Shown one piece after another: positions 5,285-22,345 of a DNA stretch of 42,153 nt. The notes below the pieces were generated by a model. The model was not told the origin of the DNA. It did not search any database and saw only the letters and a list, made by a program, of their open reading frames with translations. The DNA is from Clostridia bacterium (lineage in GTDB: Bacteria > Bacillota > Clostridia > Oscillospirales > CAG-272), in the NCBI GenBank assembly GCA_017621695.1, contig JAGASP010000079.1:1-42153 (forward strand), read 5' to 3'. Every line of letters begins with the position of its first letter. Within the stretch, counting starts at the first letter, position 1. Made by a program: the position numbers and the translations under genes.

Positions 5285-5316
5285 ACAGATATTTCTCCTT
5301 TGATTTTTGTGTTTTT

Positions 5317-5345
5317 ATTTTATCAAAATGCAACGCTCCCGTCAA
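5317..5345 (-). promoter_or_regulatory. Promoter of the GH95 gene
   Basis: On the minus strand TTGACG (5345-5340), 17-nt spacer, TAAAAT (5322-5317), about 33 nt before the start codon. Confidence 0.75.
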
Positions 5346-5390
5346 GGGGAAAAAAAGCAGGAATTTCAGAAAATTCTATTGTCTCATGGA

Positions 5391-5420
5391 TTTCTCGCCA
5401 ATAGAGTTTTAGAGATGCCC
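5391..5420 (-). repeat. Interspersed repeat, copy 1
   Basis: The minus strand reads CTCTAAAACTCTATTGGCG plus AGA; the plus strand at 42017-42039 carries the same sequence with one extra A. Its presence at both ends of the window suggests a dispersed intergenic element. The rest of 5346-5480 shows no gene. Confidence 0.5.
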
Positions 5421-5480
5421 TGCCCAAGCTCCATCCAATCTTTTCAGAATTCAGTGAAAAGTGAAGAGTGAAAAAGTAAA

Positions 5481-5651
5481 AGAGAGAGGGATTCAGAACC
5501 CCCATTTGCGCGCACATTCACCTTTGAGCCAAACGATTGGAGCGCAAATCTTTCCGTGCCGCGCGGGCGGCACGGAGGGGTTCTTCATCGTACACTTTCG
5601 TAAAAAACAAAGAATCCGAACCGAAGTTCGGATTCTTTGTTTTTGGCGGAG
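5481..5651. repeat. 171-bp direct repeat, left copy (island boundary)
   Basis: Aligns without gaps to 26001-26171 with mismatches only at 5495, 5538 and 5581. It begins with a 14-nt piece matching the 3' part of tRNA-Ser (agagagagggattc) and ends with TGGCGGAG, the complement of a CTCCGCCA tRNA end. It contains a copy of the tRNA-Ser terminator hairpin (about 5603-5644). The left flank is GH95-side chromosome, the right flank the island. Confidence 0.85.
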
Positions 5652-5690
5652 GGTGTGGGACGTAAAACGACTTCGTCCATCGGTATTTAG

Positions 5691-5724
5691 CCACCGCCCT
5701 GTACAAGTTAGTACAAGGCGATGG
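5691..5724 (-). other. Stem-loop downstream of the surface operon
   Basis: In minus-strand RNA CCAUCGCCUUGUAC pairs with GUACAGGGCGGUGG (14 pairs, two of them G-U). It lies 25 nt past the stop codon of the last operon gene. No U tract follows in that direction, so it may be a 3'-end processing or pause structure rather than a simple terminator. Confidence 0.45.
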
Positions 5725-5748
5725 CAATTTTTTGAAATGTAGCCCCAA

Positions 5749-7623
5749 TTAGTGAATCTCCACATTCCATCCCGCAAGGTACTGCATAAGTCTAGTCACG
5801 TCCTTGTTATTATAAGACCCATCGTTGTTAACATCTAAGGCAGGCGTATTTACCGTCACGCTCCATCCCGCAAAATACTGCATCAAACGAGTAACGTCCT
5901 TGTTGTTAACAACACCGTCTCCGTTGATATCACCGGGAATATAGTCAATGACGGTGACCTCACCGGGCGTGATGTTAAGCGCAACATTTTCCTCGGCAAG
6001 ATTGTAGACGTTGTCGGGCTCGTAGGTGATGTTCAGTTTCGTGCTGTCTCCCGCCTTGGCGTTTTCGGAAACCTTGAAGGTTAAGGTGGCGAACACGCAG
6101 TCTTCGGACATATCAGCAAAGGGGCTGACCCAATACAGAGTTACGGAGCTATTCATACTCTGAGGAGGCACGGTCTGTCCGCCCATGGCTGTGTTATATT
6201 CCACAGAAAGCAGGGTCAACAGGGACTGGTCAAAGGATACGTTCAGAATGGCCGAGGCTATACCGGGGTTGTTTTCAAGACTGACGGTAACCTTGACGGT
6301 TTCGCCGGGGAGCGCTTCGTGGGAAGAAATTACAACCTGGGTTTTCAGAGTTGGAGCAGGGTCGTCGTAATCGCGTCCGCACACGCAATTCTTCGGAGCA
6401 CAATCTTCCATATCATATGTGCCGTCCGAATAGATAACTTTATGGCGCAAAATACCAGCGTACCACCTATAACCTACGATCGTTTTTCCACCAACGGTCA
6501 CTCGACACTCTGCTTTAAAATTACCGTCCGCAGTAGTAGCGGTAATCGTCACGGTACCATTGGCCTTGGCAACGAGAAAGCCACGCTCGTTGTTATCTCC
6601 ACTGGTAGCAACATCGACAATAGATTCATCACTGCTGGTCCAGTTCACCAATTGATTGGTAGCATCGCCGGGCAAGACAGTGGCATCAATCCACTTGCCA
6701 TCACCTATTTTCATGGTCACGTTGGTTTCGCTGAGGGTGATGCCGATCACAGGAACGGTGTCAGTACGGGTTGCGCCGCAATAGGTGCATTTTTGGCCGA
6801 CAAAGGAGTGGTTGGATTTAGGGGTAAAGTCATCTTGGTAGCTGTCACTGCAGGAGCATAAAAATATGGTATATCCTTCTGCAGTACAAGTAGGCTCAAC
6901 AACTTTATACGGAATGTAGTCGTGCTCGTGATCAGGAGGAATCTCTTCAACCTTCTCGTATCCGCAATCCTCGCAAGTATAGGTGATTTCACCGGACTCG
7001 TCATAGGTGGGCTCGAGGGTGATCTCACCGTCGTCAAAGTTGTGCTTTTCATATTCGGTTTCTCCACATTCGTTGCAGGTGCGGAGATGATAATTTTTTG
7101 TATATTCTTCCCACTCTCCCCATCCGCATTGATGTTCTTCAACTACGCTAATCGTTCCATTTGTTAAACGAACATCCACATTGTTCCCACTTGCATCAAG
7201 AGCATCATCTTGATTCATAGTTAACACAATCGAATAATCACCTTTATCCGCATTATGATTAATAGTAAAATAAAGATATACTACTGTTCCGGTAACAGTA
7301 ATGTTTTCATTTAATGTGTCATTAATCCAAGTAAGACGATAAGGTGAGGAAAAAATAGACTTATGATATTCATTTCCTAACAATCCTTGGTCTCGCACCT
7401 CTGTTAATGTGAGCGCAGATTCATCGTAATTAATATTTAGTGAAAGACTAACAAAACCGCTATTGGAGTTTATAGTTATCGGGACGATAACCGTTTCACC
7501 GCGTTGTCCATCCACACTACCCGCATAAATGGACACGGAAGACGCGGCAGAAATTACAAGCGCGTTCCCTAGCAAAAGTGAAAAAAGCAGTAAAATCGAT
7601 ATGCATTTGGTAAATTTACGCAT
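5749..7623 (-). CDS. Secreted cohesin / Cys-rich / BIG2 / cohesin / dockerin protein
   Basis: Last gene of the surface operon. Residues 1-27 are a signal peptide (MRKFTK, hydrophobic stretch, cut near ISAAS). A cohesin-like beta domain spans 28-162, a Cys-rich region with CxxC pairs 165-287, a BIG2 immunoglobulin-like domain 292-378 (GITLSETNVTMKIGD, VNWTSSD), a second cohesin-like domain 426-560, and a type I dockerin 562-621 with two calcium loops (DINGDGVVNNKD, DVNNDGSYNNKD). No catalytic domain is seen. The start at 7623 is chosen because GGGAGGGGGG precedes it and because it gives the signal peptide; the upstream gene's TAA overlaps it (ATGCGTAA), indicating translational coupling. It could bind another protein's cohesin through its dockerin while offering two cohesins itself. 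Binding is inferred, not shown. Confidence 0.85.
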   Translation of the reverse strand: MRKFTKCISILLLFSLLLGNALVISAASSVSIYAGSVDGQRGETVIVPITINSNSGFVSLSLNINYDESALTLTEVRDQGLLGNEYHKSIFSSPYRLTWINDTLNENITVTGTVVYLYFTINHNADKGDYSIVLTMNQDDALDASGNNVDVRLTNGTISVVEEHQCGWGEWEEYTKNYHLRTCNECGETEYEKHNFDDGEITLEPTYDESGEITYTCEDCGYEKVEEIPPDHEHDYIPYKVVEPTCTAEGYTIFLCSCSDSYQDDFTPKSNHSFVGQKCTYCGATRTDTVPVIGITLSETNVTMKIGDGKWIDATVLPGDATNQLVNWTSSDESIVDVATSGDNNERGFLVAKANGTVTITATTADGNFKAECRVTVGGKTIVGYRWYAGILRHKVIYSDGTYDMEDCAPKNCVCGRDYDDPAPTLKTQVVISSHEALPGETVKVTVSLENNPGIASAILNVSFDQSLLTLLSVEYNTAMGGQTVPPQSMNSSVTLYWVSPFADMSEDCVFATLTFKVSENAKAGDSTKLNITYEPDNVYNLAEENVALNITPGEVTVIDYIPGDINGDGVVNNKDVTRLMQYFAGWSVTVNTPALDVNNDGSYNNKDVTRLMQYLAGWNVEIH

Positions 7624-10600
7624 AATATCCCCCCTCCCACTTATCAAAGAATGCATCTATGGAAGTGTGACAATTCTTATAATATTGGCTATTGCTCATT
7701 AATTTCCAATAATCCTGATTTTTAAATAGCCAGAATTCATTAAGTTTCGCAGCTAACGAATTATACAGAGCTAAACAATCCGCCAACGCGTGCATCTGCT
7801 TCTTCATCTCATGGGAGATAGAAGCATCTTCGTTTTGGGAGTATTCAATCATTAGCACATCTAAATAATTCTCTATATCGAGTATAGTTTCTAAAACATC
7901 CGCCATAACAATAACTGCATCACCATGATTGTTAATACCAAAAGTAAACTGCTCCAGAATAGCAGTAATACCGCCAAAAAGGATTCCAGAACCTATATCG
8001 AGCATTCCTTCAGCAATTCTATTTAGTGTTCCCAAGAATGATTGATCAATACATTGTTTCATGTATTTGGCAGCCTTTAACAGATTTGTATTACTTCCAT
8101 TTTCTAAAGCGGAAATTAAAACATCAAGCTTAGCTTCTACAACGAGATAATCCTTGAAGCCAATATCATAGAATATTTCGCCAATTTGAGCAACCAGTTC
8201 TATTTTACCCAAATACTCATCAAAAATTTCTTTTACATACTCACAATCCCCTAAATATACTTCCACACTCTTCTTGGCTACCTTCATAATTTCGTCCATT
8301 GCTTCGTTAAAGCTTGGCATTTTAGCCGAATTAGCATACATTTTAGCAAATTCTCTTCGTATTCCGGTATCCGATTGACATATTTTGAACATTTTCTGAA
8401 GATGTTTCTGTACTTCTGCTTCGATAACAGGATCGGATGACAATTCGTGAGTTCTAAACCATGTTCTAATGCTAAGTAATTCAGAATAATGTTTTGACGA
8501 ACCAAATGTTTTGTTGAATTCGCTATCCGTAATATTTTTATTTCTAAAATATGCAATAAAAGTGTTTGATATTTGCAAGAATTTTTGACTATCAACAGCT
8601 ATATTCGTATAATACTCTGCGTCCATAGCATCCAAAATAGCTTTTAGAGCATGCGTTCCCGAATAAGTCTCGAAATCCCCATATTTATACACATCTGCTA
8701 TATTGCACAACATATCTGTCGTCATTGCAATTCCCAACGAAAGCTCATTGTTGCAATAGTCTACAAGCTCTTCATTAGCCAAAACGAAATTTTTAATAAA
8801 CGGTGCGTTTTCCTCAAAGTATGTATTATTTAATTTTTCTACAAGAACTGATACCTTTTCTGGTTGCTTTAGTATAGTCAGTGTCCATTTGGTGGTGGCG
8901 GTTTGATTTGTATAGGGAGAGGAAACCTTTGCTGTAATAGTCATCTCTCCTTCTCCCATATTTTGAAGTTGTGCTGCGGTAACAACTACCTGACCGGGTC
9001 CGCTATGAGAGAAGTTTTGTTGAATCGTCTTACCGTTCAAGGAAATAGTTAACTCAAATGCCTCAATTCCATAGCTTCCATCCCAATTGATAGTCACATC
9101 CCGATCATTGTATATTCTTTCCCCCCTATTAAGTGAAATGTTATCACTTGTTATAGAAGTAATCATACTTCCAGAATACAGCGGAACGGCATATCGCCCA
9201 ATCAAATATTCGGCTTTATTTGAGGCATCCAACACAACTCCCTGGGGAACTACATAGAATGAATAATAGCGTCCTCTTGGCAGGCCTATAGATGTTATCT
9301 TAAACGATTCTTCAGTTTTTCCTAAATCAAGATTTCTCCAATAGTGTTTGCCTTGATCATTTTCTGCAATAAATTGATACACAACATTATTGTTAATGTT
9401 TCCTGACTTTACCTTCAAATTAATATATAGAGAATTGGAAGAAAAAGACATATTCCACACAGCAGAATCCGGCTGAGGTGGAATAGGATTATAAAAAGCA
9501 GACAAATCCTCATATCCCTGCCAAGCCGCTAAATGGCGCATTAAAATATCCACATCAACTTGAGTTATTTCACCATCACCATTGATATCCGCTGCCGTTT
9601 TATCAACATTGGTATATCCTGTCATATTGGCAAGATATCTGTTCAGTAGGAAACGATCCTTGTTGGTGATCTGACCGTCGCCGTTGAGGTCGCCGCGCGT
9701 TGTACTTATGGCCACAACAGGCTTGTGATCCTTCACCAGCGTTCCATAAACATCCGACCAAGCATTCAAAACAACAATGTATACACCCGCATTTGCCAAA
9801 GACATTTCATAAGGAACATATTCATTATTGTTATTAAGTGTATACCCTTGAATGGTGGATCCTGCTCCGGTTTTGATCGTGCCCGATACCGGTTTGGAGG
9901 ATGCGTTTAGACCGGTATATCGAATATACACAGAATCCGCAAGCAACGATGCGTATTTCTCATTGTCAGAAATATACTTCGCATAGTCACTCTCCGTGCG
10001 GAAATATCCAATGGATACACTAACGGTATTCAATTTATAACCATTCCCGTAGGCTGTCCCGGAATATGTAAAGCTATCTCCAAGATTAATTTGCGTTTTA
10101 GATACTGTTAACTCGACCTCGGGAATTTCTATAGGTTCTTCCACGATAACCGCTTTGCGGACTTTGACGAGTTTTCCATAATCATCCGACCAAGCATTCA
10201 AAACAACAATGTATACGCCCGCATTTGCCAAAGACATTTCATGCGAAATATATTCATTGTTGTTATTAAGTATCTCTCCTCGAATTTTGGATCCCGCCCC
10301 AGTTTTAATCGTATTGGAAACCGATTTGGAGGATGCGTTTAGATCGGTATACCGAATATATACGGAATCCGCGAGCAACGATGCATATTTCTCATTGTCA
10401 GAAATATACTTTTCGTAGTCGCTCTCGGTTCGAAAATATCCAATGGATACACTAACGGTATTCAACTTATAATCTTTACCGTAGGCTGTCCCGGAATATG
10501 TAAAACTTTCGCCAAGTGAAATTTGTGAAGGGGTTACTGTTAAACTTACTTCAGGTTTCTTATAGTCTGGTTCTGTTACAGAAAATCTATATTCTTTTTT

Positions 10601-11884
10601 ATCATATTCGCCTGTGTTTTTACCGGAAGCGGTAATATAAAGCAAATAATCACCAACTTCATCGATTGCAAAATTGCTGTATGCATACCAATTGCCGTTA
10701 CTATCTTGCTGATAACCTGACGGTGCTTTTTTTCCCGTAGTAATTCTGCCATTCAAAATCTTTTCGGTATTAAATTTTGCGCCTCCAACACTGGTTTGTC
10801 GATAGTAAATATAATCGCCGTCAGATATTTTTTTCAAAGAAATAGTTACATTATCAAAAACATCGTTTTCGATATAAATGTATCCTTCCCAGATCAAATC
10901 TTCACCCAGAGCAACTGTCTTACTGATTTCAAATTCAGAAAAATCAAATTCTGTTTTTAGTTTTGCAGCCTCCTGGTAAACATCGATGGTTACTTTTTCG
11001 CTAGTTGATTTATCGGTTATAGTAATCGTACCCTCACGATCTTGAGATGTTGCATTCTCCTTGCACGTTACCGTGATCTTTTTATCACCGCTACCACTAG
11101 TCGGAGAAACGCTAATCCAGGATTGATTATCGGAAATCGACCAACTACCCGACGAATATACCCAAAAAGTGTCCGTGCCGCCATCTTCATCGAACTTCAG
11201 TTCTTCTTCGGAAACCTCAATTTCTTCTTCCTTGCCTTCTTGATACACCTCAATTTCAAAAGTATCACCAGATCCTGTGTGCGTTACCGTAATTGTTCCT
11301 TCTCTCTCGGCACCAACGTTATTTGAACAAGTAACGGTAATCGTTTTGCTTGACGATCCACTTGTAGGGGATACCGTGATCCACGAAAGATTTTCCGATA
11401 TCGTATAAGCACTCGACGACGTAATAGTGAATGTATCACTTCCTCCCGTAGCCGTAAATTTCAATTCATCTTCGGAAACTTTCATCGGAACCCAAACGTA
11501 GTCATATACCGATTCGGCCTCTCCGTATTGATTTTTTGCAACTATAACATAGTCAACGAAATCTCCCGGGTTCAACCCAGTTATTTTATGTGTAAATGTA
11601 ACATTATTACTGATCGTGCCATCCGTCACTCCAGACCAATTATAGTTCGAAGAAGAATGATTAACAATGTATCCAAAACCGTATCTTTGAATGGCTACAC
11701 CACCATTTGCAGTAATCTTACCCTTTAAAGTAACATAATTACTGCCAACATCCGGAGCTACTCTCTTTACGGTTGGCACACTTCCATCCGCCGCCCTCGC
11801 CTCAATCGGCGGAAAAGCCGCAAAAACCGACGCAAACATCAGTATCGCCAGGAAAAAGCTCAGAATTCTCCCTTTTACTCTCAT
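7616..11884 (-). CDS. Large secreted protein with BACON domains, internal dockerin and helical C-terminus
   Basis: 1422 aa. Signal peptide 1-32 (cut near ARAA); fibronectin III-like 33-130; two BACON-like domains about 133-215 and 222-305 (each with SW-I-x-VSPTSGS and an EGTIT strand); an unknown beta region 308-440; two long tandem repeats, 444-583 and 589-728, over 80% identical by eye; a dockerin in mid-chain at 731-790 (DLNGDGQITNKD, DINGDGEITQVD); further beta domains 805-1005; and a helical C-terminal region of about 410 residues that I do not recognise. No cohesin and no wall anchor are seen, so its attachment would depend on its dockerin. An AGGAGG site precedes the start, with only 17 bp to the upstream gene. 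The C-terminal block is the most novel-looking part and could be an effector or adhesin. Confidence 0.85.
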   Translation of the reverse strand: MRVKGRILSFFLAILMFASVFAAFPPIEARAADGSVPTVKRVAPDVGSNYVTLKGKITANGGVAIQRYGFGYIVNHSSSNYNWSGVTDGTISNNVTFTHKITGLNPGDFVDYVIVAKNQYGEAESVYDYVWVPMKVSEDELKFTATGGSDTFTITSSSAYTISENLSWITVSPTSGSSSKTITVTCSNNVGAEREGTITVTHTGSGDTFEIEVYQEGKEEEIEVSEEELKFDEDGGTDTFWVYSSGSWSISDNQSWISVSPTSGSGDKKITVTCKENATSQDREGTITITDKSTSEKVTIDVYQEAAKLKTEFDFSEFEISKTVALGEDLIWEGYIYIENDVFDNVTISLKKISDGDYIYYRQTSVGGAKFNTEKILNGRITTGKKAPSGYQQDSNGNWYAYSNFAIDEVGDYLLYITASGKNTGEYDKKEYRFSVTEPDYKKPEVSLTVTPSQISLGESFTYSGTAYGKDYKLNTVSVSIGYFRTESDYEKYISDNEKYASLLADSVYIRYTDLNASSKSVSNTIKTGAGSKIRGEILNNNNEYISHEMSLANAGVYIVVLNAWSDDYGKLVKVRKAVIVEEPIEIPEVELTVSKTQINLGDSFTYSGTAYGNGYKLNTVSVSIGYFRTESDYAKYISDNEKYASLLADSVYIRYTGLNASSKPVSGTIKTGAGSTIQGYTLNNNNEYVPYEMSLANAGVYIVVLNAWSDVYGTLVKDHKPVVAISTTRGDLNGDGQITNKDRFLLNRYLANMTGYTNVDKTAADINGDGEITQVDVDILMRHLAAWQGYEDLSAFYNPIPPQPDSAVWNMSFSSNSLYINLKVKSGNINNNVVYQFIAENDQGKHYWRNLDLGKTEESFKITSIGLPRGRYYSFYVVPQGVVLDASNKAEYLIGRYAVPLYSGSMITSITSDNISLNRGERIYNDRDVTINWDGSYGIEAFELTISLNGKTIQQNFSHSGPGQVVVTAAQLQNMGEGEMTITAKVSSPYTNQTATTKWTLTILKQPEKVSVLVEKLNNTYFEENAPFIKNFVLANEELVDYCNNELSLGIAMTTDMLCNIADVYKYGDFETYSGTHALKAILDAMDAEYYTNIAVDSQKFLQISNTFIAYFRNKNITDSEFNKTFGSSKHYSELLSIRTWFRTHELSSDPVIEAEVQKHLQKMFKICQSDTGIRREFAKMYANSAKMPSFNEAMDEIMKVAKKSVEVYLGDCEYVKEIFDEYLGKIELVAQIGEIFYDIGFKDYLVVEAKLDVLISALENGSNTNLLKAAKYMKQCIDQSFLGTLNRIAEGMLDIGSGILFGGITAILEQFTFGINNHGDAVIVMADVLETILDIENYLDVLMIEYSQNEDASISHEMKKQMHALADCLALYNSLAAKLNEFWLFKNQDYWKLMSNSQYYKNCHTSIDAFFDKWEGGYYA
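9701..10555 (-). repeat. Two tandem ~420-bp repeats inside the 1422-aa gene
   Basis: 10136-10555 and 9701-10120 encode the duplicated blocks (residues 444-583 and 589-728); both contain SVSIGYFRTESDY and NAGVYIVVLNAWSD. High DNA similarity suggests recent duplication and possible copy-number change. Confidence 0.8.
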
Positions 11885-11901
11885 GAATATATCCTCCTTA
11901 A

Positions 11902-13989
11902 TTATTTAACCGTAACCTTACCGCTCACAACCTCAAATGAGATATTGGTTTCGGTGATATCGTAGACGTTATCGGGCTGGTAGGAAAGAGAAATTTCGTA
12001 GTTCCCTTTCGCGGCGGTATCCGAAACCTTAAAAGTCAGAGTAACCAAGACGAAATCTCCCGTAGCATTGGCAAAGCCGTTGACCCAATAGAGGTTGAAG
12101 GGGCTTGTAAGGGTCTGGGGAGGCACGGTCTGACCGCCGATGCTCGTATTATAGGCCACACTTTGAAGATCAAGCATCGCATCATCAAAAGTGGTATTCA
12201 GAATGATCGAAGCGATACCGGGGTTGTTTTTCAGTGCCACGGTCACCTCGACGGTATCACCTGCCTTGGCGGTGGTCGACGAGACAATGAAGGCAGGGCC
12301 GGTGGGATCGGGGGTGGGGTCGTAGTTGTAGTGGATGGTGGCGGAGGTAAGTGCCTCATTACCGTACTCAATTTTTATCTTTGCCCAGTCAGCCTCGGAG
12401 CCGGCATAGTAGACGTTTTTCAGTGCATCACAATACTCAAAAGCCGCCCAATCAATTTTGACGATCGTGTCAGGAAGCACGATGGTTGTCATACTGCAAA
12501 GAAGAAAAGCATATTCATCTATCTCTACAACCTTGTCTCCGTCCGGAGATACAGATGGAATGATTACCATATTATCATCCGAATATGTACCTGCATAATA
12601 TACATAGCAAGTTCCGTCGCCATTTGAGCGGAACACGAGGGTTTGATCAGGCAACTTACATTCTGTACAATAACCATCCTCCATATTATGGTCGCCACGA
12701 GAATGAGTAGCTATTTGTACCTCCTCGGCTAAAACCAATTCGCAATCTTCACACCAATGTATTACAACTATTTCTTTACCACAGTTAGGAAATTCTTTGC
12801 TAGGCTTTCCTTCTATAACAATTATTCTATCGTGAGGACACTCCACCTCCACACCACAACGAGAGCAGAAACCGCTACCGTCGGACTCGTGACCCAAAGG
12901 AGACAGTTCTTCTCTCTGTGCCTCGAACCCCCAAGGAGAGCAAACAGTACAATAGGTCTCTGTCCAACCGGATTCTGTACAAGTAGGCTCGGTGATCACT
13001 CGCCATCCCAGATAATGCCCCGTGGCGGGAATTGTTTCCATTCCTTCAATACCCTGTCGACAATGGATACAGCGAGTGCCCGCCGTCCAACCATCTTCGA
13101 TACAGGTGGGCATTTTTGCCTCAACAAACTCGGGTTCATGCGCTCTGAGCGGTATGATCTCTTGAGCTAACAATATTTCGCCACAAGTCGCACACCGCTC
13201 ACCATCGGTCAATCCATATTCAGTACAAGTATTCGAATAACCGGGTATGATCTCAGTCTTCTCATGCTTGCAAACGGTAACTGCAGGGCCGCGGCTGATC
13301 TCCACGTCCCAACCGGCAACGTAGCGGAACAGAATGACGGCATCTCTATTGTTGACCTTGCCGTCCCCATTCACGTCCAGCGCATCGGCATCCACCTTAA
13401 CATCCATCCCTGCAACATACTGGAACAGGAGGATGGCATCCTTGTTGTTGACAGCTCTGTCGCCGTTGATATCTCCGGGGTAGCCGTGAACGATGTGAAC
13501 CTTACCGTTGATGGCTGCGGTGGTAATACTGTTATAATCACCGTCAAAGATATTTTCGTCATCGCAAATCAATCTGATGGCAGCATCGTATTGATCGGGA
13601 GCATTAGGCGAAACAAGGAAGGTCAAGGTGGCAAAAATACCGTTGGCCTTGACTTCCGAAAGAGGACTGATAAAGCTGATGCTCTGAGGATTTTTATAAG
13701 GCTCGGGAGCCGTGACGTATGCGCCAAAAGCGGTGCTGAACTCTACCTTTTGGAGGGTGAGCATTTCATCATAGGCTACATTAAACTTCAATGATGCCAA
13801 GCCGGGATTGTTTTCAAGATAAATCTGCACTTGTACCGTGTCGCCCGGCAGGGCTACCACGTCTTCTGCCCGAAGTATCATGTTTGGCATTTCAGCAGAG
13901 GCGTTGATGGGCTTGAAAATGCTGATGGTCGCAATAAAACACAGAACCACGGTGGCAAGGATGATGCGAATTCTTTTTTGATTTGCCAT
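11902..13989 (-). CDS. Secreted cohesin-dockerin / Cys-rich / leucine-rich / cohesin protein
   Basis: 695 aa from the ATG at 13989, preceded by GGAG at 6-nt spacing; an upstream in-frame ATG would spoil the signal peptide. Signal segment 1-33. Cohesin-like domain 36-165 (LENNPGLASLKFNVAYDE); dockerin 170-229 (DINGDRAVNNKD with R replacing the usual G, DVNGDGKVNNRD); a long Cys-rich region 240-447 with many CxxC pairs and PTCT/PTCIEDGWT units resembling disordered zinc-ribbon-like linkers; a BspA-type leucine-rich stretch 450-555; second cohesin-like domain 566-695 at the very C-terminus. Having both partners on one chain would allow head-to-tail chaining or attachment to the lipoprotein's cohesin. 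No enzyme domain is visible. The 17-bp gap to the next gene supports one operon. Confidence 0.85.
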   Translation of the reverse strand: MANQKRIRIILATVVLCFIATISIFKPINASAEMPNMILRAEDVVALPGDTVQVQIYLENNPGLASLKFNVAYDEMLTLQKVEFSTAFGAYVTAPEPYKNPQSISFISPLSEVKANGIFATLTFLVSPNAPDQYDAAIRLICDDENIFDGDYNSITTAAINGKVHIVHGYPGDINGDRAVNNKDAILLFQYVAGMDVKVDADALDVNGDGKVNNRDAVILFRYVAGWDVEISRGPAVTVCKHEKTEIIPGYSNTCTEYGLTDGERCATCGEILLAQEIIPLRAHEPEFVEAKMPTCIEDGWTAGTRCIHCRQGIEGMETIPATGHYLGWRVITEPTCTESGWTETYCTVCSPWGFEAQREELSPLGHESDGSGFCSRCGVEVECPHDRIIVIEGKPSKEFPNCGKEIVVIHWCEDCELVLAEEVQIATHSRGDHNMEDGYCTECKLPDQTLVFRSNGDGTCYVYYAGTYSDDNMVIIPSVSPDGDKVVEIDEYAFLLCSMTTIVLPDTIVKIDWAAFEYCDALKNVYYAGSEADWAKIKIEYGNEALTSATIHYNYDPTPDPTGPAFIVSSTTAKAGDTVEVTVALKNNPGIASIILNTTFDDAMLDLQSVAYNTSIGGQTVPPQTLTSPFNLYWVNGFANATGDFVLVTLTFKVSDTAAKGNYEISLSYQPDNVYDITETNISFEVVSGKVTVK

Positions 13990-14053
13990 TTTAATCTCCA
14001 TTCCGCCGCCGAACGACGGCAAAAATAAACTCTAAAATTTGTCCGTTTTAGCG

Positions 14054-17000
14054 TCAGGACGGATCGATGGTTTCGGTAGTGATAAACTCAATGGAACCAA
14101 CCAGCATAAAGGTATCGGGTAGAGTGTCATAAGTGAAATAAACTGGGCCGTTGTAATCAACATCAGTCAGGTCAATGATCACAGCCTCGGGAATCCAGCC
14201 GTGGAGAGTATAGGTCGTGGCGGCAATGATATCCTCTTCTGCGGGGGAATACGTCATATGTGTATCAACCTTGGACAGGATAATGCGATTATTGAGACTA
14301 TTGGCATAGTGCTCTTGCGTAACATAACTGTTATCACAACCGCAATATACAACAACATGGCTGTATTTGGACAGGTCGATTTCGCCAACGCCGACTGCAC
14401 CCCGGTGCAGCAGCGCGCCAACCTCCAGACCGCCTGCGCCGACCATGGGACCGATACCTTCCTTATCCTTGGAGGTCAGACCGGAAGCGTAACCGGAAAC
14501 AGTCCAGGTGTCCATGGGAACGTCATAGTCCGTAGCGGGAGCGGGAACGAACTCGATCTTACCAATAAGCATGAAGGTGCCGGGTAGCGTGTCGTAGGTT
14601 ACGAACACGGGGCCGTTGTAATCAACCTCGGTGAGGTCGATCTCGATGGTAACAAGGCTCCAACCCTCGAGGGTGTAGGTAGCGGAAGCAATGATATCTT
14701 CCTCTGCGGGAACGTTACTCATGTGATTGTCAACCTTAGACAGCATAATGCGGTTGTTAGCATTAGCTTCGTAGTGACCAACGGTAACAGGAGAGTTGTC
14801 GATACCATAGCTGATGATAGCCTTGGAATACTTGGAAAGGTCAATCTCGCCAATGCCGACGGCGCCCTGGTGCAGAAGCGCACCGGATTCAATACCGCCT
14901 GCAGCAACCATGGGAGAGTTGCCGTGACCTTCCTTGTGAACGATTTGAGCACAGTGACCGGAAACAGTCCAGGTGTCCATGGGAACGTCATAGTCCGTAG
15001 CGGGCTGCTGAGGATTTTCGGGTTCATCCGGATAATCAGGGTCATCGGGTTCGCCGGTATCAGCGGGCACGACAGAAGCATATGCCTTGTAATTTGTTCT
15101 TGTCCGTTCTCCTTCGAGATAGACTTCAACGCCTTCCACCGGATCAGCCTCCCAGGAGGTGAAAAACTTGGAGCCCGACAAATATTCAAGCTCGTAATAA
15201 ATATCGCCCTTGATCCCCAGTTCTATGGGAATATCTGTCAAGAAGGGCGTGTTATCCACATGGTTTTCGCCCAATAACAGGAAAAGCGGCTCTTCTGCCA
15301 CCGTGCTTTCGTAGTTACCATTCCATTGCCAAACCTTAAGGGACCAGGTATTGATGTTCCCGTCAGCGTACGTTGCCAGGTTTGCGATGAAGATTTGGCT
15401 AAGCACGTCTTCATTAATTTTAAACCGCTGGCCGAATCTTGTCTTATTCCAGCAAAACGGATCAAAAGAGCCTGAATTGCTGAGTTGAGCACCAAGTACG
15501 ATCTTTTTATATTTGGGGGTGTTGTCCGGGATTTCGATCTCCTCAGAAATGATCAGCACAAACTCAGTCAGGCAAACTTCAACACCATCAGGGTTTTTAT
15601 ACAAAACGCGGATGGTATTTTCGCCGGCCAGATCAGCTATTGAAATAGCGATTTTCATACGAGAGGCTGTGTCAGCACCCGTAACCATAATAGCAATATC
15701 ATACACCCTCGCCTCGGTTTCGTGTGTCCATGCATCACTATAGATGGGTATGTCGTTGTTGATCTGATAGCCAAAGCTGCCTACCTCACCCATGATACCG
15801 ATCCATCCCCAATAAGTCAGGGTATCGGCCTGTGAAGGATTCATTTGAGCAATATGATTCCATGTGGCGGAATCACCGGGATAGAAGAAAATATTGTTTT
15901 CGTCTTCACTGTTTGCTTCGCCCGTGCCCAAATAGAGTTGGTCAAAGGACAGATGGGTCACGATATCGTAGCGATCATCCCACATGGGCGGATCATTTGA
16001 TTCGACGTTGTCGTTGTCGAAATGGACGATAGCAGAGTCAAGGCAATCGTTAAAGACTTCGACACGAATGGAGTTCCATTCGACACGGGTACCGGAGAAG
16101 TAGACATCGTTAAGAGATGAGCATCCCAAAAATGCCGCAAAATCAATTTCAGTCACTCCTGCAGGAATCACAATACTGGCCAAATCACAACAGTAATAAA
16201 ATGCATGACTCCCAATCCTCGTCACGCCGTCGGGTAACACAATCGACGTCAAATAAGAGCAACCGTTGAAGACATCGTCACCCAAAATTACTACGTTATC
16301 CGGAATATCAATGGAGCTCAATGCTGTACAAGCGAAAGCACCGCTACCAATCTCTACTACACCATCGGGGATCATAATTGAAGATAGGCTGGAGCAATCC
16401 ATAAATGCGTTACCGCCAATAATAGTCACGCTGTCGGGAATCACAACGGAGGTCAAAGAGGAACAGCCGTTGAACATATCTTTACTAAGCTTATTTAATC
16501 TATTTGGAATCTTAACCGTAACCAAATTGGTACAACGGGCGAGCACACCGGCACCAACAAGTGTCACGTTATTGGGGATCACCATGGAGGTTAGTCCTGT
16601 ACACTCACAAAAAGCATCTTTGCCAATCGTCGTCACACTATCCGGAATTTCGATGCTCTTCAAGTTGCTACAGCTAAGGAATGCCTCCTCACCGATCTCG
16701 GTCACCCTATCCCCCTCGGGAGAATACTCGGGGATGACCAAATCAACGTCCGTACAACTGCCGATACCGACCACCGTGCAGGTACCGTCGCCGTTGGAGC
16801 GATACTCCAAGCCTTGACTGCCCTCAACGGAAGCATCGGGGTTGTAGTTCTCGTCCTCGTCGCCGCACCGTGTGCAGACACCATTCTCATAACCATGTCC
16901 CACAGCAGGAAGTTTCACAGGTTCGTTGATCACCTCGCCGCAATCCGCACACTTCTCCCCTTCCGAATATCCGTCCTCGGTGCAAGTGGGCAATACGGCA

Positions 17001-17743
17001 GGAATTTTCTCGGCCTTACGATGCTCACAAGCAGCAGAGGAAGGTCCACGGCCAATCTCTACGTCCCAGCCCGCCACGTAGCGGAACAGGGTGATGGCAT
17101 CCTTATTGTTGACACTGCCGTCACAGTTAACATCCAGTGCGGCTTCGTCTGCGGTCACGTTCCAGCCGGCAACGTAACGGAACAACATGATGGCATCCTT
17201 GTTGTTGACCTTACGGTCGCCGTCGATATCGCCGGGAATACCATGGATGATATTGATAGCACCGTTATGTATGTTTACACCCACAGGGGCAAGGTCACCG
17301 TCAAACACGTTTTCCGCATCGCAATCTACCGTGATCTTTGCCATGTAATTGTCGGGGGCATTGGCAGAAACACGGAAGGTCAGAGTTGCAAAGGTTCCGT
17401 TGGCATTGACCTCCTCCAGAGGGCTGATAAAGCTCAGCGTCTGGGGATTCTTATAGGGGGTAGGTGCCAGGACATAGGCACCAAAGGCCTGATCAAAGGT
17501 CAAGTTTTCCAGAGTCAAGTAGCTGTCATACACCACATTGAACTTTAAGGACGCTAAACCGGGATTGTTTTTCAGTTCGACGGTGATCTGAACAGTATTT
17601 TCCGGCATAGCCGTGACAGTATCCACATACAGATCCATCGTCTCGCCCGAGGCGGCCGACACGGAAATTATTAAGCTCGGAAGACTGAGAAGCATTGCAA
17701 AGATCAAAAGAATCGCAAGTCCTCTTTTCCCTATGTTTTTCAT
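14054..17743 (-). CDS. Secreted cohesin-dockerin protein with BspA leucine-rich repeats and duplicated C-terminus
   Basis: 1229 aa. Signal peptide 1-31 (cut near SVSAAS). Cohesin-like 34-165; dockerin 168-228 (DIDGDRKVNNKD, DVNCDGSVNNKD); Cys-rich linker 238-295; BspA/LRR_5-type leucine-rich repeats about 330-555 (recurrent IPDSVTxIGxxAFxxC), a fold often used for adhesion; unknown beta region 590-735; a beta module at about 745-890 with VWQWNGNYESTV that resembles part of the 520-aa secreted protein at 40389; and two C-terminal copies of a 150-residue domain (916-1068 and 1070-1222), each opening with ATDYDVPMDTWTVSG. AGGAG lies 8 nt before the start and the upstream stop only 22 bp away. 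Likely role: ligand-binding or adhesin subunit of a dockerin-attached surface assembly. Confidence 0.85.
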   Translation of the reverse strand: MKNIGKRGLAILLIFAMLLSLPSLIISVSAASGETMDLYVDTVTAMPENTVQITVELKNNPGLASLKFNVVYDSYLTLENLTFDQAFGAYVLAPTPYKNPQTLSFISPLEEVNANGTFATLTFRVSANAPDNYMAKITVDCDAENVFDGDLAPVGVNIHNGAINIIHGIPGDIDGDRKVNNKDAIMLFRYVAGWNVTADEAALDVNCDGSVNNKDAITLFRYVAGWDVEIGRGPSSAACEHRKAEKIPAVLPTCTEDGYSEGEKCADCGEVINEPVKLPAVGHGYENGVCTRCGDEDENYNPDASVEGSQGLEYRSNGDGTCTVVGIGSCTDVDLVIPEYSPEGDRVTEIGEEAFLSCSNLKSIEIPDSVTTIGKDAFCECTGLTSMVIPNNVTLVGAGVLARCTNLVTVKIPNRLNKLSKDMFNGCSSLTSVVIPDSVTIIGGNAFMDCSSLSSIMIPDGVVEIGSGAFACTALSSIDIPDNVVILGDDVFNGCSYLTSIVLPDGVTRIGSHAFYYCCDLASIVIPAGVTEIDFAAFLGCSSLNDVYFSGTRVEWNSIRVEVFNDCLDSAIVHFDNDNVESNDPPMWDDRYDIVTHLSFDQLYLGTGEANSEDENNIFFYPGDSATWNHIAQMNPSQADTLTYWGWIGIMGEVGSFGYQINNDIPIYSDAWTHETEARVYDIAIMVTGADTASRMKIAISIADLAGENTIRVLYKNPDGVEVCLTEFVLIISEEIEIPDNTPKYKKIVLGAQLSNSGSFDPFCWNKTRFGQRFKINEDVLSQIFIANLATYADGNINTWSLKVWQWNGNYESTVAEEPLFLLLGENHVDNTPFLTDIPIELGIKGDIYYELEYLSGSKFFTSWEADPVEGVEVYLEGERTRTNYKAYASVVPADTGEPDDPDYPDEPENPQQPATDYDVPMDTWTVSGHCAQIVHKEGHGNSPMVAAGGIESGALLHQGAVGIGEIDLSKYSKAIISYGIDNSPVTVGHYEANANNRIMLSKVDNHMSNVPAEEDIIASATYTLEGWSLVTIEIDLTEVDYNGPVFVTYDTLPGTFMLIGKIEFVPAPATDYDVPMDTWTVSGYASGLTSKDKEGIGPMVGAGGLEVGALLHRGAVGVGEIDLSKYSHVVVYCGCDNSYVTQEHYANSLNNRIILSKVDTHMTYSPAEEDIIAATTYTLHGWIPEAVIIDLTDVDYNGPVYFTYDTLPDTFMLVGSIEFITTETIDPS

Positions 17744-17765
17744 GATATATCTCCTTTATGTTAAT

Positions 17766-18986
<1,221 letters not shown>

Positions 18987-19007
18987 CTTTTTCTCCTCGT
19001 AGTTTTT

Positions 19008-19031
19008 ACTACATAATTCCTATTATGTAGT
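19008..19031. repeat. Left crossover site of the invertible promoter
   Basis: Dyad ACTACATAA - TTCCTA - TTATGTAGT (9-6-9, arms perfectly complementary). Its 19014-19031 part (taattcctattatgtagt) is the exact reverse complement of 19217-19234. A 9-bp-arm site with a 6-bp spacer is the layout used by Xer-like tyrosine recombinases. In the ON state it would lie in the 5' UTR and could form a hairpin. Confidence 0.85.
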
Positions 19032-19085
19032 AATAGTAGCAATATTCGAATTGGTTTTCCTGAACTCATATTCTATACGACATAT

Positions 19086-19130
19086 GTTAAAAGGCCAATG
19101 AAAAAACCATACTTTCATTGGCTTTTTAAC
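19086..19130. terminator. Bidirectional terminator inside the invertible segment
   Basis: 18-bp stem, 19086-19103 with 19113-19130 (one G-U), 9-nt loop, A tracts before and T tracts after on both strands. As assembled it would stop read-through from the minus-strand recombinase gene into the surface operon. After inversion it would lie behind the promoter and still insulate it. Confidence 0.88.
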
Positions 19131-19174
19131 GATGTTGTTTTTTGTTAAATTTCGGTAAACATATCCGCAAATTC

Positions 19175-19203
19175 TTGACAATTATATATGTAAGGTTTAT
19201 AAT
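19175..19203 (+). promoter_or_regulatory. Perfect sigma-A promoter in the invertible segment
   Basis: TTGACA at 19175-19180, 17-nt spacer, TATAAT at 19198-19203. It points toward the 3' end of the recombinase gene, where no plus-strand gene begins before 20519, so in this orientation it can only yield RNA antisense to the recombinase. Confidence 0.92.
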
Positions 19204-19216
19204 GAAATTAAATCAA

Positions 19217-19240
19217 ACTACATAATAGGAATTAAGTGAT
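19217..19240. repeat. Right crossover site of the invertible promoter
   Basis: ACTACATAA - TAGGAA - TTAAGTGAT: the same 9-6-9 layout as the left site with the spacer in inverted orientation (TAGGAA is the complement of TTCCTA). The outer arm is degenerate (6/9), which fits a weaker second recombinase-binding half-site. Confidence 0.83.
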
Positions 19241-19252
19241 AATTTCAAAAAG

Positions 19253-20185
19253 TGCAAAATACGTACTGCTAACATTTGAGCAATCCTAATTTTTGAATCT
19301 GCCTCCGATGCACATCACCCGTTTCCATGGTGTAGATGCGCGTCGTATTCACGCTACTGTGTCCAAGGATGTCCGCAAGACGTACTACGTCCTTTTGCCG
19401 GCTGTAATAAGTGCGCGCAAAAAGATGGCGGAGATTGTGTGGGAAAACTTTTTTCTCCGACACATTTGCCGCCTTGCATAGTTTTTTCATATCACTCCAA
19501 ATATTTGATCTGTCCAGCGGATTCCCGTTTTTCGTCACGAAAACGGACCCGCTTTTTATTTTTTGCTCTTTCGCATATTGCTTTAAGATCTGGCAGAGCT
19601 GCTTCGGCAAAAATACCTGTCGTCGCTTGCTCTTGCAGTTGATCTCGGCAACACCACGGTGGATCGATTCGACCGTGATATAGCGAACCTCGGAAACTCG
19701 GATGCCGGTAGAACAGATGGTCTGCATCAAGAAAAATAACCGCTGATTTTTCTTTTGTTTGGCCGTTTGCAAAAGGCGGTCATACTCGACCTTGGTCAGT
19801 TCCTTATCTGTAGACGTAAAGATCGGCTTTTGAATTTTAAGATTTTTTACCCTTAGATCGTACCATTCCATAAAATTGAAAAAGCTGTTGAGCGAGGACA
19901 ACGCAGCATTAACGCTTGCAGGCGCATAACGCTCGCAGAGGTACGCTTTGTAGGCAAGAACTGTCGTTTTGCATAGTTCTCCCTCGATTAGCCAGGCCTG
20001 GAAATCGCGAATGTCATGGAGATACTTTCCTATGGTTGCCGGTGCTTTTTCCTCGTTGATCAGGTAACTTTGGAATAATTGAATGATTTCGGTTGTAATT
20101 TTTCTCATGGTTGTCATCCTCCTTTTACCTGATATTGTATCACAAATGGATCTTTGCGACACGCGAATGACAAACGTATTTTGCA
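19253..20185. repeat. 12-bp inverted repeats flanking the recombinase gene
   Basis: TGCAAAATACGT at 19253-19264 and its exact reverse complement at 20174-20185, 4 bp past the stop codon and about 65 bp before the start codon of the recombinase. Could be recombinase binding sites, cassette ends or chance. Confidence 0.4.
19269..20108 (-). CDS. Tyrosine recombinase, candidate invertase of the promoter switch
   Basis: 279 aa, XerC/XerD-like. N-terminal core-binding SAM-like domain about 1-90 and catalytic domain about 100-279. All catalytic residues are readable: R137 (STGIRVSE), K161, H224 and R227 (PHNLRH), H250 (LGHSS) and nucleophile Y259 (TTRIYTM). The start at 20108 (MRKITT) is chosen because AGGAGG lies 9 nt upstream; longer forms from 20186 lack a ribosome binding site. 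The stop codon is 28 bp from the right crossover site, and the gene shares a strand with the surface operon. Placement beside an inverted-repeat promoter segment is typical of dedicated invertases such as RecV of Clostridioides difficile. It lacks the N-terminal arm-binding domain of phage integrases, which favours simple-site inversion over phage-like integration. An alternative role in island mobility cannot be excluded. Confidence 0.92.
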   Translation of the reverse strand: MRKITTEIIQLFQSYLINEEKAPATIGKYLHDIRDFQAWLIEGELCKTTVLAYKAYLCERYAPASVNAALSSLNSFFNFMEWYDLRVKNLKIQKPIFTSTDKELTKVEYDRLLQTAKQKKNQRLFFLMQTICSTGIRVSEVRYITVESIHRGVAEINCKSKRRQVFLPKQLCQILKQYAKEQKIKSGSVFVTKNGNPLDRSNIWSDMKKLCKAANVSEKKVFPHNLRHLFARTYYSRQKDVVRLADILGHSSVNTTRIYTMETGDVHRRQIQKLGLLKC

Positions 20186-20269
20186 ATAGCGCAAACCTTT
20201 TTCATGTACACCCAAGCAACTCACTATTAGGCATAATAATCCCCCGATTTTTGCCTTTCGTCCGTGTCC

Positions 20270-20297
20270 AGTGTAGCATAGCTCTCGCAGCTGTCAA
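20270..20297 (-). promoter_or_regulatory. Possible promoter of the tyrosine recombinase
   Basis: Minus strand TTGACA (20297-20292), 16-nt spacer, TACACT (20275-20270), leaving a leader of about 155 nt. Confidence 0.45.
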
Positions 20298-20336
20298 CGT
20301 GAAAAAATATCGCCGAAAAATGAAATAGTCAACGAG

Positions 20337-20518: not shown

Positions 20519-21157
20519 ATGAAAACTCAAAACCAAGTAAGAATCACAAACGAAAATGTAAGGATCACCGAAGAAAATGTCCAGCATATCGGTGAATGTA
20601 TCGCACTGTCTGCCATCAAGAAGATGATGCGGTTTGCCCACCATCCAAAGTCCTTGGACAAGCTGTATGCCGGATTAGTTGAAGACGTGTACGGTAACAG
20701 AGGCTACAACACGACCTTCTCGGATGGTTACGATCTCGCATCCGAGGTGATCTGCTTCCTCTGCCACTACATGGGTCACAACTTGGATGATCTGGCCTGT
20801 CAGAATCGTAGAGGCGAGCTACTAACTGTCCGCTTTGCCTGCTACCGTCACGTGTTGAGGTACATTGAGAAGGAGTATCTTTCCAGCTACAAGACCATCA
20901 GCATCGAAGAGTGTTCGCCGGCAGACGCGTCTATTGACTTTGAGACACAGTATGAGATCGAGGATTACACTAAGGTTGATACCATCATCCATCAAATGCA
21001 CTTGACCGTTGCAGAAACCGAAACGCTGAATCACTACATGGCAGGACTTGGATTCGTTGAGATCGCGCAAATGCAGAATGTCAACAATACTACCGTCTGG
21101 CGTCGCAGAAAGAGCATACAGAAGAAGTATCTGCGATATATCGTCATGCAAGGCTGA
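20519..21157 (+). CDS. Sigma-like HTH protein of mobile-element type
   Basis: 212 aa. The C-terminal 50 residues (about 160-205) read as a sigma region 4-like helix-turn-helix: LTVAETETLNHYMAGLGF, IAQMQNVNNTTVWRRRKSI. The middle (about 40-130) is helical and sigma region 2-like at best. GGGAGGT lies 9 nt before the start. Such sigma-like regulators are common in clostridial integrative elements. It is convergent with the XRE gene downstream and separated from it by a hairpin. Target genes are unknown; it could act on island promoters. I cannot assign a named family. Confidence 0.7.
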   Translation: MKTQNQVRITNENVRITEENVQHIGECIALSAIKKMMRFAHHPKSLDKLYAGLVEDVYGNRGYNTTFSDGYDLASEVICFLCHYMGHNLDDLACQNRRGELLTVRFACYRHVLRYIEKEYLSSYKTISIEECSPADASIDFETQYEIEDYTKVDTIIHQMHLTVAETETLNHYMAGLGFVEIAQMQNVNNTTVWRRRKSIQKKYLRYIVMQG

Positions 21158-21169
21158 TCCTATTTATAC

Positions 21170-21200
21170 ACAAACACAAAAGGGAGCTTTACGGCTCCCT
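21170..21200 (-). terminator. Terminator of the XRE gene
   Basis: AGGGAGC/GCTCCCT stem (21181-21200), followed on the minus strand by TTTTGTGTTTG. It lies between two convergent genes; only the minus-strand T tract is good. Confidence 0.7.
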
Positions 21201-21238
21201 AATGTTATGTGATATGAAAAGCTCCTTGCGCATAGGGA

Positions 21239-22345
21239 TTATTTCGCAACAGCACGGAGCATTGCAAGAATGTCCTTGAATTCATGCGCATCACGAATGA
21301 AATCGTATTGAGCATTATCCTTGTTGAACATCTTTTGGAGTAGATCGTAACTGCTGTTATGTCCGTCGTGCCACCAAACATCTCCGGGAACAATCCCTTT
21401 GGCCGCAGGAGAAATATGCTCATCCTCGGGGTTTGTCTTATCAAACATGATCGCGAATTTCGCCGCAGATTCCAAGCAGGCAATGGCATTGTCTGCATCC
21501 CTCCGGGAAGCATAAATATCAGCCATTTGACGATAGGCACTTTCCACATATTGTGCGTGGAAGAAATAATCGCCCTTGGGGAAATACAGAGCAAACATAT
21601 CAATGCACATCTGATTTAGTTCAAGGATCTCGTCGTCAGAATACATATTGTTGCCGCTATCATCCTTGGTTGCGAGCAAATCATCCAACAGCCCACCGAT
21701 AGCACTGGTAAACTGTCCCAGCATTTCATCGCGAATGACCTCAAACTGCCGTTTGCCAGTATAGATACGCCCTAACAATTCACCGCACGTCCAGGTAGCA
21801 CCTTCCAACGTCTTGGCCAATCGCTCGGCTTCCTCGGTACGACCCAATTTTGCATACCACAAGCAAGCCATAGAAAGGCTATTGTTTCGAATGCTTGCAT
21901 CTGTGCAATCGCTGAGGATATTGTCAATGTACATCAAAGCGCGGTTTCGATTGATTTCACGAACCTCTTCCGGGAAGATTTCGTTATACAGAAAGATCTC
22001 GTTGGCATAGAAATCCATCAGCTTATACGATGAAGGATGAAGCAGTAATGCCTTTTCAATCAAAGCGATGGCTTGCTTGTGATCTCCGCTGGCAGCAATC
22101 GTGTATGCTTCATCGTACAGCAGATCAATCTGCTTGCTCTTGCTTCCGATGTCAACACCCAAAAGATGATCGGTGGTGACATCAAATACACTGGCAAGGG
22201 GAGCCAGGAGGGAGATATCGGGAGCTGTTCGATCGCATTCCCATTGTGAAACTGCTTTGGGAGACACCCCAAGGTATTCGGCCAAATCCTCTTGTGTCAG
22301 ATTTTTGGCGCGACGGAGAGATTTAATGGTAGAGCCTATGGACAT
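21239..22345 (-). CDS. XRE-family regulator with C-terminal TPR-like helices
   Basis: 368 aa. Residues 5-60 form a Cro/CI-type HTH (IKSLRRAKNLTQEDLAEYLG, SPKAVSQWECDRTAPDI). Residues about 75-360 are helical with TPR-like spacing (QIDLLYDEAYTIAASGDH, AIALIEKALLLHP). This layout is common in clostridial regulators and in peptide-responsive RRNPP-like proteins, although no peptide can be identified here. AGGAGG precedes the start. A perfect 14-bp palindrome at 22375-22388 lies about 30 bp upstream and may be its own operator. It may repress the replication/integration genes or others on the island; the target is inferred only from position. Confidence 0.85.
   Translation of the reverse strand: MSIGSTIKSLRRAKNLTQEDLAEYLGVSPKAVSQWECDRTAPDISLLAPLASVFDVTTDHLLGVDIGSKSKQIDLLYDEAYTIAASGDHKQAIALIEKALLLHPSSYKLMDFYANEIFLYNEIFPEEVREINRNRALMYIDNILSDCTDASIRNNSLSMACLWYAKLGRTEEAERLAKTLEGATWTCGELLGRIYTGKRQFEVIRDEMLGQFTSAIGGLLDDLLATKDDSGNNMYSDDEILELNQMCIDMFALYFPKGDYFFHAQYVESAYRQMADIYASRRDADNAIACLESAAKFAIMFDKTNPEDEHISPAAKGIVPGDVWWHDGHNSSYDLLQKMFNKDNAQYDFIRDAHEFKDILAMLRAVAK

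Follow-up and report, generated by a model that had tools for sequence, protein, structure and literature searches.

The DNA analysed here, which we call the window, is a stretch of 42,153 nucleotides from a Clostridia bacterium (contig JAGASP010000079.1 of assembly GCA_017621695.1). Between a five-gene operon for cohesin- and dockerin-bearing surface proteins and a gene for a tyrosine recombinase, the window contains a short element (positions 19006-19242) that, judging from its sequence and its relatives, is very probably a site-specific DNA inversion switch that would drive the operon when ON. The element and the recombinase gene are made up as follows.

19006-19033, no strand: left recombination site, a perfect 12-4-12 dyad, TTACTACATAAT-TCCT-ATTATGTAGTAA, with two arms and an asymmetric 4-bp crossover spacer
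19086-19130, no strand: internal palindrome or hairpin (GGCCAATGAAA...TTTCATTGGC), 45 nt, with an RNA fold
19175-19203, + strand: promoter TTGACA-17-TATAAT, 12/12 consensus, aimed at the recombinase 3' end (OFF)
19217-19242, no strand: right recombination site, with inner arm ACTACATAAT, spacer AGGA (the inverse of TCCT) and a degenerate outer arm
19269-20108, - strand: tyrosine recombinase, 279 aa (PF00589, 5.9e-29, plus SAM-like N-terminal domains), stop codon towards the switch

Anatomy of the probable switch element

A first-pass annotation had read the locus as an invertible promoter seen in the OFF orientation. The 18-bp inverted repeats on which it relied (19014-19031 and 19217-19234) match at 18/18 bases, and the match reaches 26 nt at 88% identity when the 18-bp core is extended; by our rough estimate, about 1e-5 such pairs are expected by chance in 1.3 kb. 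The annotation had also placed each repeat within a 9-6-9 dyad. This is correct for the left site, which is described even better by the 12-4-12 dyad, but fits the right site only loosely, as the inner arm there is retained and the outer arm pairs at 6/9 positions (hand count). The promoter is the sole 12/12 match within 4900-20300 and, as had been stated, faces away from the operon. Inversion at the spacer in silico brought the end of the -10 element to 59 nt upstream of the lipoprotein ATG (18986), against the roughly 60 nt originally predicted. The 5' leader created in this way includes the site dyad, folded as a hairpin in the RNA (leader fold -9.7 kcal/mol). The left site lies only about 24 nt from the lipoprotein start codon, and there is therefore no space for a separate adjacent promoter. 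As expected of an inverton, the promoter lies between inverted sites, a gene is placed to be driven after inversion, and the crossover sequence is matched and asymmetric.

The recombinase reading frame is intact. The last base of its stop codon is 19269, which is 34 bp past the perfect repeat and, in agreement with the annotation, 28 bp past 19240. The protein belongs to the tyrosine recombinases (Phage_integrase) by a catalytic domain with R-K-H-R-H-Y; the candidate residues R137, K161, H224, R227, H250 and Y259 occupy columns that are invariant in an alignment of 15 relatives, and we take their roles to be the catalytic ones usually assigned to this set. The protein was rejected as an XerC/XerD/XerA equivalog (best score 136 bits against an NCBIfam cut-off of 220, NF040815; XerD 130 against 329.6) and as a fim-type invertase (NF007370 and NF007371, 27.7 against 221 and 20.5 against 222 bits). 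Upstream of the recombinase gene, 20519-22345 contains a 212-aa open reading frame (ORF) with no Pfam match and a gene for an HTH-TPR regulator.

The hairpin at 19086-19130 folds at -24.9 kcal/mol (z -7.9) on the + strand and at -20.8 (z -5.5) on the - strand. In either orientation it lies behind the promoter relative to transcription and stands between the recombinase and the operon. A terminator scan of 18500-19800, limited to loops of 8 nt, called no site; the loop of this hairpin is 9 nt. Relatives carry a palindrome of the form AGACCRATG-N(about 15)-CATYGGTCT, designated the AGACCAATG palindrome, whose occurrence itself carries no null comparison. At least five T in both 8-nt tails were found for only 12/55 palindromes, and the palindrome-promoter distance shows signs of phasing (R 0.55 at the best period of 10.4, n=30, a figure given without a null comparison). 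For these two reasons a plain bidirectional terminator was not adopted; the hairpin may terminate recombinase read-through or be a protein site, and we keep both roles.

Site pairs, spacing and orientation among relatives

Relatives were collected by a DNA search of 97 genomes, consisting of the window's own genome (G000) and relatives, in which 24 matched and 16 regions were used, and by a profile scan of genome contigs, from which the best 80 loci among the matches listed, mostly from gut Clostridia metagenome-assembled genomes, were all used. Ruminant hindgut samples are among the sources named for the scanned contigs, and the named isolates include Fournierella massiliensis and Lachnoclostridium sp. 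An14, whose versions are more distant at 53% identity. After four duplicates were dropped, the 97 units, the window included, gave 93 distinct recombinase loci; a recombinase adjoins every locus by construction of the search. Sites were placed solely by the arm motif ACATAAT-N4-ATTATGT, with mismatches allowed and with no part played by the spacer, and two such sites were found in 74/93 loci. Earlier repeat surveys had found no repeat at 3/17 loci (L035, L042 and L043; L035 was given sites after its recombinase end was corrected) and, under the rules then applied, none at 14/80.

In all 74 loci the 4-bp spacer was identical in the inverted sense within the pair, with no direct matches and no palindromic spacers. 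Between loci, spacers varied: 48 distinct ones were present, and only 86 of 5402 between-locus comparisons (1.6%) matched. Identity within pairs combined with variety between loci is the hallmark of inversion by recombination between the two sites of a pair. It could be argued that no recombination occurs and that the dyads merely act as operators or terminators in a conserved regulatory region. Dyads can serve as operators, and the left one folds as RNA (-12.1 kcal/mol, z -5.0), yet spacers differ widely from locus to locus and still agree, in the inverted sense, within every pair; a tyrosine recombinase gene adjoins each locus (by the search's design), and relatives occur in opposite orientations. 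We give this explanation almost no credence and consider it all but ruled out by the spacer identity in 74/74 pairs.

Additional tandem copies of the outer site, 33 bp apart, were present in G054:C29 (23877-23960, three copies) and G098:C38 (4940-4990, two copies), and would offer alternative switch lengths. Recombinase relatives were also seen in contigs classed as viral, where 22 loci were found and 15 examined (L136-L150); 10 of these 15 had flanking repeats. Copies of one species in opposite states were sought in the viral contigs and none were found, the sole identical pair (L137/L138) having the same orientation.

Centre-to-centre distances between sites clustered near 210, 220, 230, 240, 251, 261, 272, 282 and onward. 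Over a scan of periods from 6 to 20 bp the best was 10.4 bp (R 0.636, n=74), which is the helical repeat of DNA, and jitter of +/-6 bp matched this value in 0/1000 trials. The periodicity persisted when loci were thinned by recombinase identity to below 80% (n=65, 0/2000), 70% (n=46, 0/2000) and 65% (n=25, 1/2000). The phase was near zero, i.e., the sites are separated by an integral number of helical turns; the window's 209 bp, 20 turns of 10.45, falls on the same lattice. Control distances were aperiodic at 10.45 (site to recombinase end, R 0.105; site to cargo start, R 0.084). Periodicity was seen as well between the -10 and the near site (R 0.716) and between the -35 and the far site (R 0.507), with n=61 and jitter 0/1000 each. 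Synapsis through a short loop is the simplest reading of the site-to-site phasing, and the phasing of promoter and palindrome may reflect the same constraint or a larger complex.

These observations bear on whether the window switch, having once inverted, is now locked or decaying, fixed OFF in this lineage. Its right outer arm is the imperfect one noted above, imperfect arms occur also at L066, L068 and L119, and the assembly shows one orientation. But the spacer and the 18-bp core are identical in both window copies, the recombinase is intact with its candidate catalytic residues, and the spacing fits the helical lattice. We consider such a loss of function quite improbable.

By promoter scan, 52 of the 74 loci were OFF (promoter facing the recombinase), 10 ON (facing the cargo) and 12 ambiguous; counting strong promoters only, 49 were OFF and 6 ON. 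The window locus is OFF. The excess of OFF loci reflects the majority consensus that assemblies record and is uninformative on rates. Elements of loci with related cargo were aligned in both senses. L076 (ON) and L069 (OFF) have homologous TetR-like first cargo (score 639), and their elements aligned inverted with z 13.4 against 5.9 direct; matches were present at the promoter-distal end of the element too. For L079 (ON) and L069 the values were 8.9 inverted against 2.7 direct (cargo score 434), and for L038 (ON) and L065 (OFF), whose first cargo is in both cases a collagen-cohesin lipoprotein, z was 4.7 against 0.8. At L044 (G031:C3, 10375-10761), whole promoters, one facing each way, lie within inverted repeats of 67 and 41 nt, which suggests a duplicated or double-promoter switch.

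The direction of the cargo could be scored in 71 loci with enough sequence (3/74 were dropped). The first ORF of at least 100 aa beyond the switch pointed away from it in 70/71 (the exception is L101); at a threshold of 50 aa, 67/71 were co-directional, the exceptions (L032, L046, L070 and L116) having a nearest ORF of 50-59 aa. The gap between switch and cargo was 60 bp or less in 35/70 loci. An alternative is that the promoter works primarily towards the recombinase, producing an antisense or regulatory RNA, with control of the cargo secondary. Such a role would agree with the promoter facing the recombinase in 52/62 callable loci (49 versus 6 for strong promoters), with the short distance between site and recombinase stop, usually from a few bp to some tens, and with no terminator being called between promoter and recombinase gene in the window, but an antisense-only role would need no co-directional cargo close to the site, and inverted copies occur among relatives. 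As the main function it is unlikely; as an added layer it is compatible with an inversion switch.

The first-pass view of an invertible promoter is thus supported by the spacer rule (74/74), by helical phasing and by the presence of both orientations in the family. Several points weigh against it. The window locus is known from one assembly, in a single orientation, and both orientations were seen only across species. Two recognisable sites were absent from 19/93 loci, some of them cut by contig ends, and 12/74 relatives had no assignable state. The ON and OFF calls depend on promoter consensus and are doubtful at least at L044, which has two promoters, and at L102, whose promoter lies 184 bp from the site; for each ON locus the alignments are those with its five best OFF partners, and orientation was itself defined by the promoter. 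Under the strictest thinning (below 60% identity, n=11) the phasing lost significance (295/2000). Finally, weak promoter-like sites lie on the - strand inside the operon, roughly as often as chance would give (a total of 39 over both strands, shuffles yielding 30.3 +/- 6.3), and there may be leaky or internal expression of the operon.

The cohesin-dockerin operon and the cargo of other switches

The operon described in the first-pass annotation as five genes over 13 kb was recovered as such. It runs on the - strand from 18986 to 5749 (13.2 kb), with genes spaced by 31 bp or less or overlapping, and its description as a cohesin-dockerin surface operon held up.

17766-18986, - strand: gene 1, lipoprotein with collagen-like repeats, a Flg_new repeat and a C-terminal cohesin (Pfam; lipobox read from sequence)
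14054-17743, - strand: gene 2, secreted cohesin-dockerin protein with BspA-type leucine-rich repeats (LRR), 1229 aa (domain searches)
11902-14022, - strand: gene 3, two cohesins, a dockerin and LRR (domain searches)
7616-11884, - strand: gene 4, BACON domains and a dockerin, 1422 aa (domain searches)
5749-7656, - strand: gene 5, two cohesins, Big_2 and a C-terminal dockerin (domain searches)

Gene 5 is the probable end of the operon and is followed by a terminator-like site at 5503-5486; such sites were overall no more numerous than in shuffles. In a genome-wide search of the assembly (90.58% complete, 127 contigs), 4/4 dockerins and 6/6 cohesins above curated cut-offs fell in this operon, and the switch would therefore govern the whole cohesin-dockerin repertoire of the genome.

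In a cellulosome, dockerin-bearing enzymes assemble on a cohesin scaffold. Here, no catalytic domain was found by Pfam at E 1e-3 in any of the five proteins, and the 4 dockerins are carried by four of them. Since all the domains lie within one operon and none is catalytic by Pfam, the complex appears self-contained, and a surface adhesin scaffold is the reading that fits it best. A degradative machine resembling a small cellulosome would share the cohesin-dockerin architecture, and a GH95 glycoside hydrolase gene does come next, at 2984-5284. However, the GH95 product has no dockerin match, and its gene lies 464 bp past the operon with a promoter-like site of its own (5345-5317), so that it is probably separate. 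The degradative alternative is not very likely, and a cellulosome proper was rejected because all 4 dockerins are on operon proteins without a Pfam catalytic domain; the BACON or LRR modules may bind carbohydrate. The operon product is most likely a surface adhesin complex. Further along, a Gut-1 RNA (RF01706, 60.8 bits) was identified at 1579-1760, immediately after a tRNA gene.

Among relatives, a signal or lipobox was present in 36/70 first cargo products by a crude signal test. Pfam, applied to the 56/70 first cargo proteins of up to 1300 aa, gave LRR_5 (5), Flg_new (5), TetR_N (5), collagen (4), SLH (4) and cohesin (4). Home-made hidden Markov models of the domains in the window detected cohesin, dockerin or both in the cargo runs of 12/70 loci, and both in 8/70 (the window, L036, L037, L038, L041, L061, L065 and L087). 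In G026 both dockerins are within an ON operon, and in G007 the only dockerin is within the switch's operon. Many dockerins lie outside switch operons in G054 (11), G074 (8) and the genomes of L065 (7), L087 (5) and L061 (17); the complete control predicted for the window is therefore not general. At L087 the first cargo gene (6266-7810) encodes a CAP12/Pycsar-type TIR domain with a cupin, ahead of cohesin and dockerin genes. One genome, G099, has four modules (C42, C95, C149 and C163; L132-L135, C95 being L061) that have a common spacer, TTTC, and lie on contigs each with cohesin and dockerin matches; exchange between them is possible.

A second element of the same kind was found in the window's genome. 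Contig G000:C40 (L130; 1-8000) starts inside a half-element with one site (123-140, spacer CGCC, one motif mismatch), the contig end leaving the other site and any recombinase outside the sequence. Its promoter combines an extended-TG TATAAT with a weak -35 (TTGCAT, 3/6), and the -10 is 49 bp from the site centre. The promoter faces a gene for an HA-domain helicase (159-2585), after which comes one for a bacterial sugar transferase; this is the ON orientation. The cargo is likely a surface-polysaccharide operon; L066 has the same type of helicase as first cargo and is OFF. The spacers of the window and C40 differ, and no exchange between the two switches is therefore expected.

Proposed mechanism and known systems

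From anatomy and comparison, we propose that the neighbouring tyrosine recombinase would bind both dyad sites, that these would synapse through a short DNA loop spanning a whole number of helical turns, and that strand exchange in the asymmetric spacer TCCT/AGGA would turn the ~200 bp between them. In the OFF state the strong promoter would fire away from the operon, into the recombinase 3' end; in the ON state its -10, 59 nt before the lipoprotein start codon, would drive the five-gene, 13-kb operon. The product would be a complex anchored by its lipoprotein and joined through cohesin-dockerin pairs, with collagen-like, LRR, BACON and Ig-like modules on display, presumably as an adhesin. The internal hairpin may stop recombinase read-through into the operon, and antisense transcription into the recombinase in the OFF state could damp switching. 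That the element flips in the window strain we infer from sequence.

A broader proposal, tentative and in our estimate rather doubtful, is that these Clostridial switches are compact machines of DNA and protein; that sites, promoter and the palindrome AGACCRATG-N15-CATYGGTCT lie on one 10.4-bp lattice, the palindrome being an accessory-protein site for an invertasome-like loop with a tyrosine recombinase; that the OFF promoter, antisense to the recombinase, damps switching; and that the window complex is all-or-none and the C40 polysaccharide operon is held ON. If true, antisense damping would account for the OFF excess.

If the inversion switch operates as proposed, cohesin-dockerin assembly, mostly considered in connection with the breakdown of plant fibre, can vary in phase as an all-or-none trait in uncultured gut Clostridia, apparently serving as an adhesin system. 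The family is a portable recombinase-plus-promoter module that occurs ahead of genes for lipoproteins, S-layer-type and LRR proteins, regulators and transporters. The spacer rule and the 10.4-bp rule can serve as simple sequence tests with which to find and rank switches when an assembly comes with no reads. The phasing also yields a physical prediction: a 5-bp insert should abolish inversion and a 10-bp insert should keep it.

Invertons of gut bacteria were reportedly treated by Jiang et al. in 2019. With fimS/FimB-FimE of E. coli, the window switch, as proposed, shares promoter inversion by a neighbouring tyrosine recombinase, and the orientation-dependent recombinase expression of fim is a precedent for feedback. 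In contrast to fim, there is a single recombinase here, the sites are different, the cargo is on the opposite side from the recombinase, and the 10.4-bp phasing is family-wide. FimE-mediated ON-to-OFF inversion is covered in passages of PMC2845655.

Invertible promoters with nearby tyrosine recombinases are already described in parts of PMC11892184, PMC5903667 and PMC5386303. The gut invertons in the main text of PMC11892184 have in common with ours a promoter between short inverted repeats, a nearby recombinase and surface-protein cargo; inverton groups of Clostridia-like Firmicutes_A appear there, with group 139 linked to tyrosine-type recombinase genes. Our site family, compared here with this main text, may coincide with one of those groups. 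The words cohesin, dockerin, lipoprotein and helical do not occur in the main text of PMC11892184, nor cohesin, dockerin or helical in that of PMC5903667.

RecV of C. difficile, named in the first-pass annotation, is an analogy set beside the window recombinase by description, not by sequence. Both are tyrosine recombinases associated with a short invertible element before a surface-structure operon, which in the flagellar switch is 154 bp between 21-bp repeats (passages of PMC5386303). The RecV repeat given there, AAGTT(A/G)CTAT(A/T)TTACAAAAAA, differs from ACATAAT-N4-ATTATGT, and RecV serves several switches in trans, whereas each switch in our search adjoins its own recombinase.

The annotation had considered the cargo to be, as far as known, without precedent. 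In the literature searched, which covers few subscription papers, we found no report combining cohesin, dockerin and invertible, none on helical phasing of invertible elements, and, for cohesin, dockerin and phase variation together, only PMC3796261, which in the part available treats the two subjects apart. Cellulosomes and amylosomes, as presented in that part, share with the window complex cohesin-dockerin assembly on the cell surface; the window operon differs in having no enzyme domains, a lipoprotein anchor with a collagen-like stalk, and a predicted invertible-promoter control. Invertible promoters as such are known, and what appears to be new, relative to the literature searched, is the cohesin-dockerin cargo and the helical phasing of such switches.
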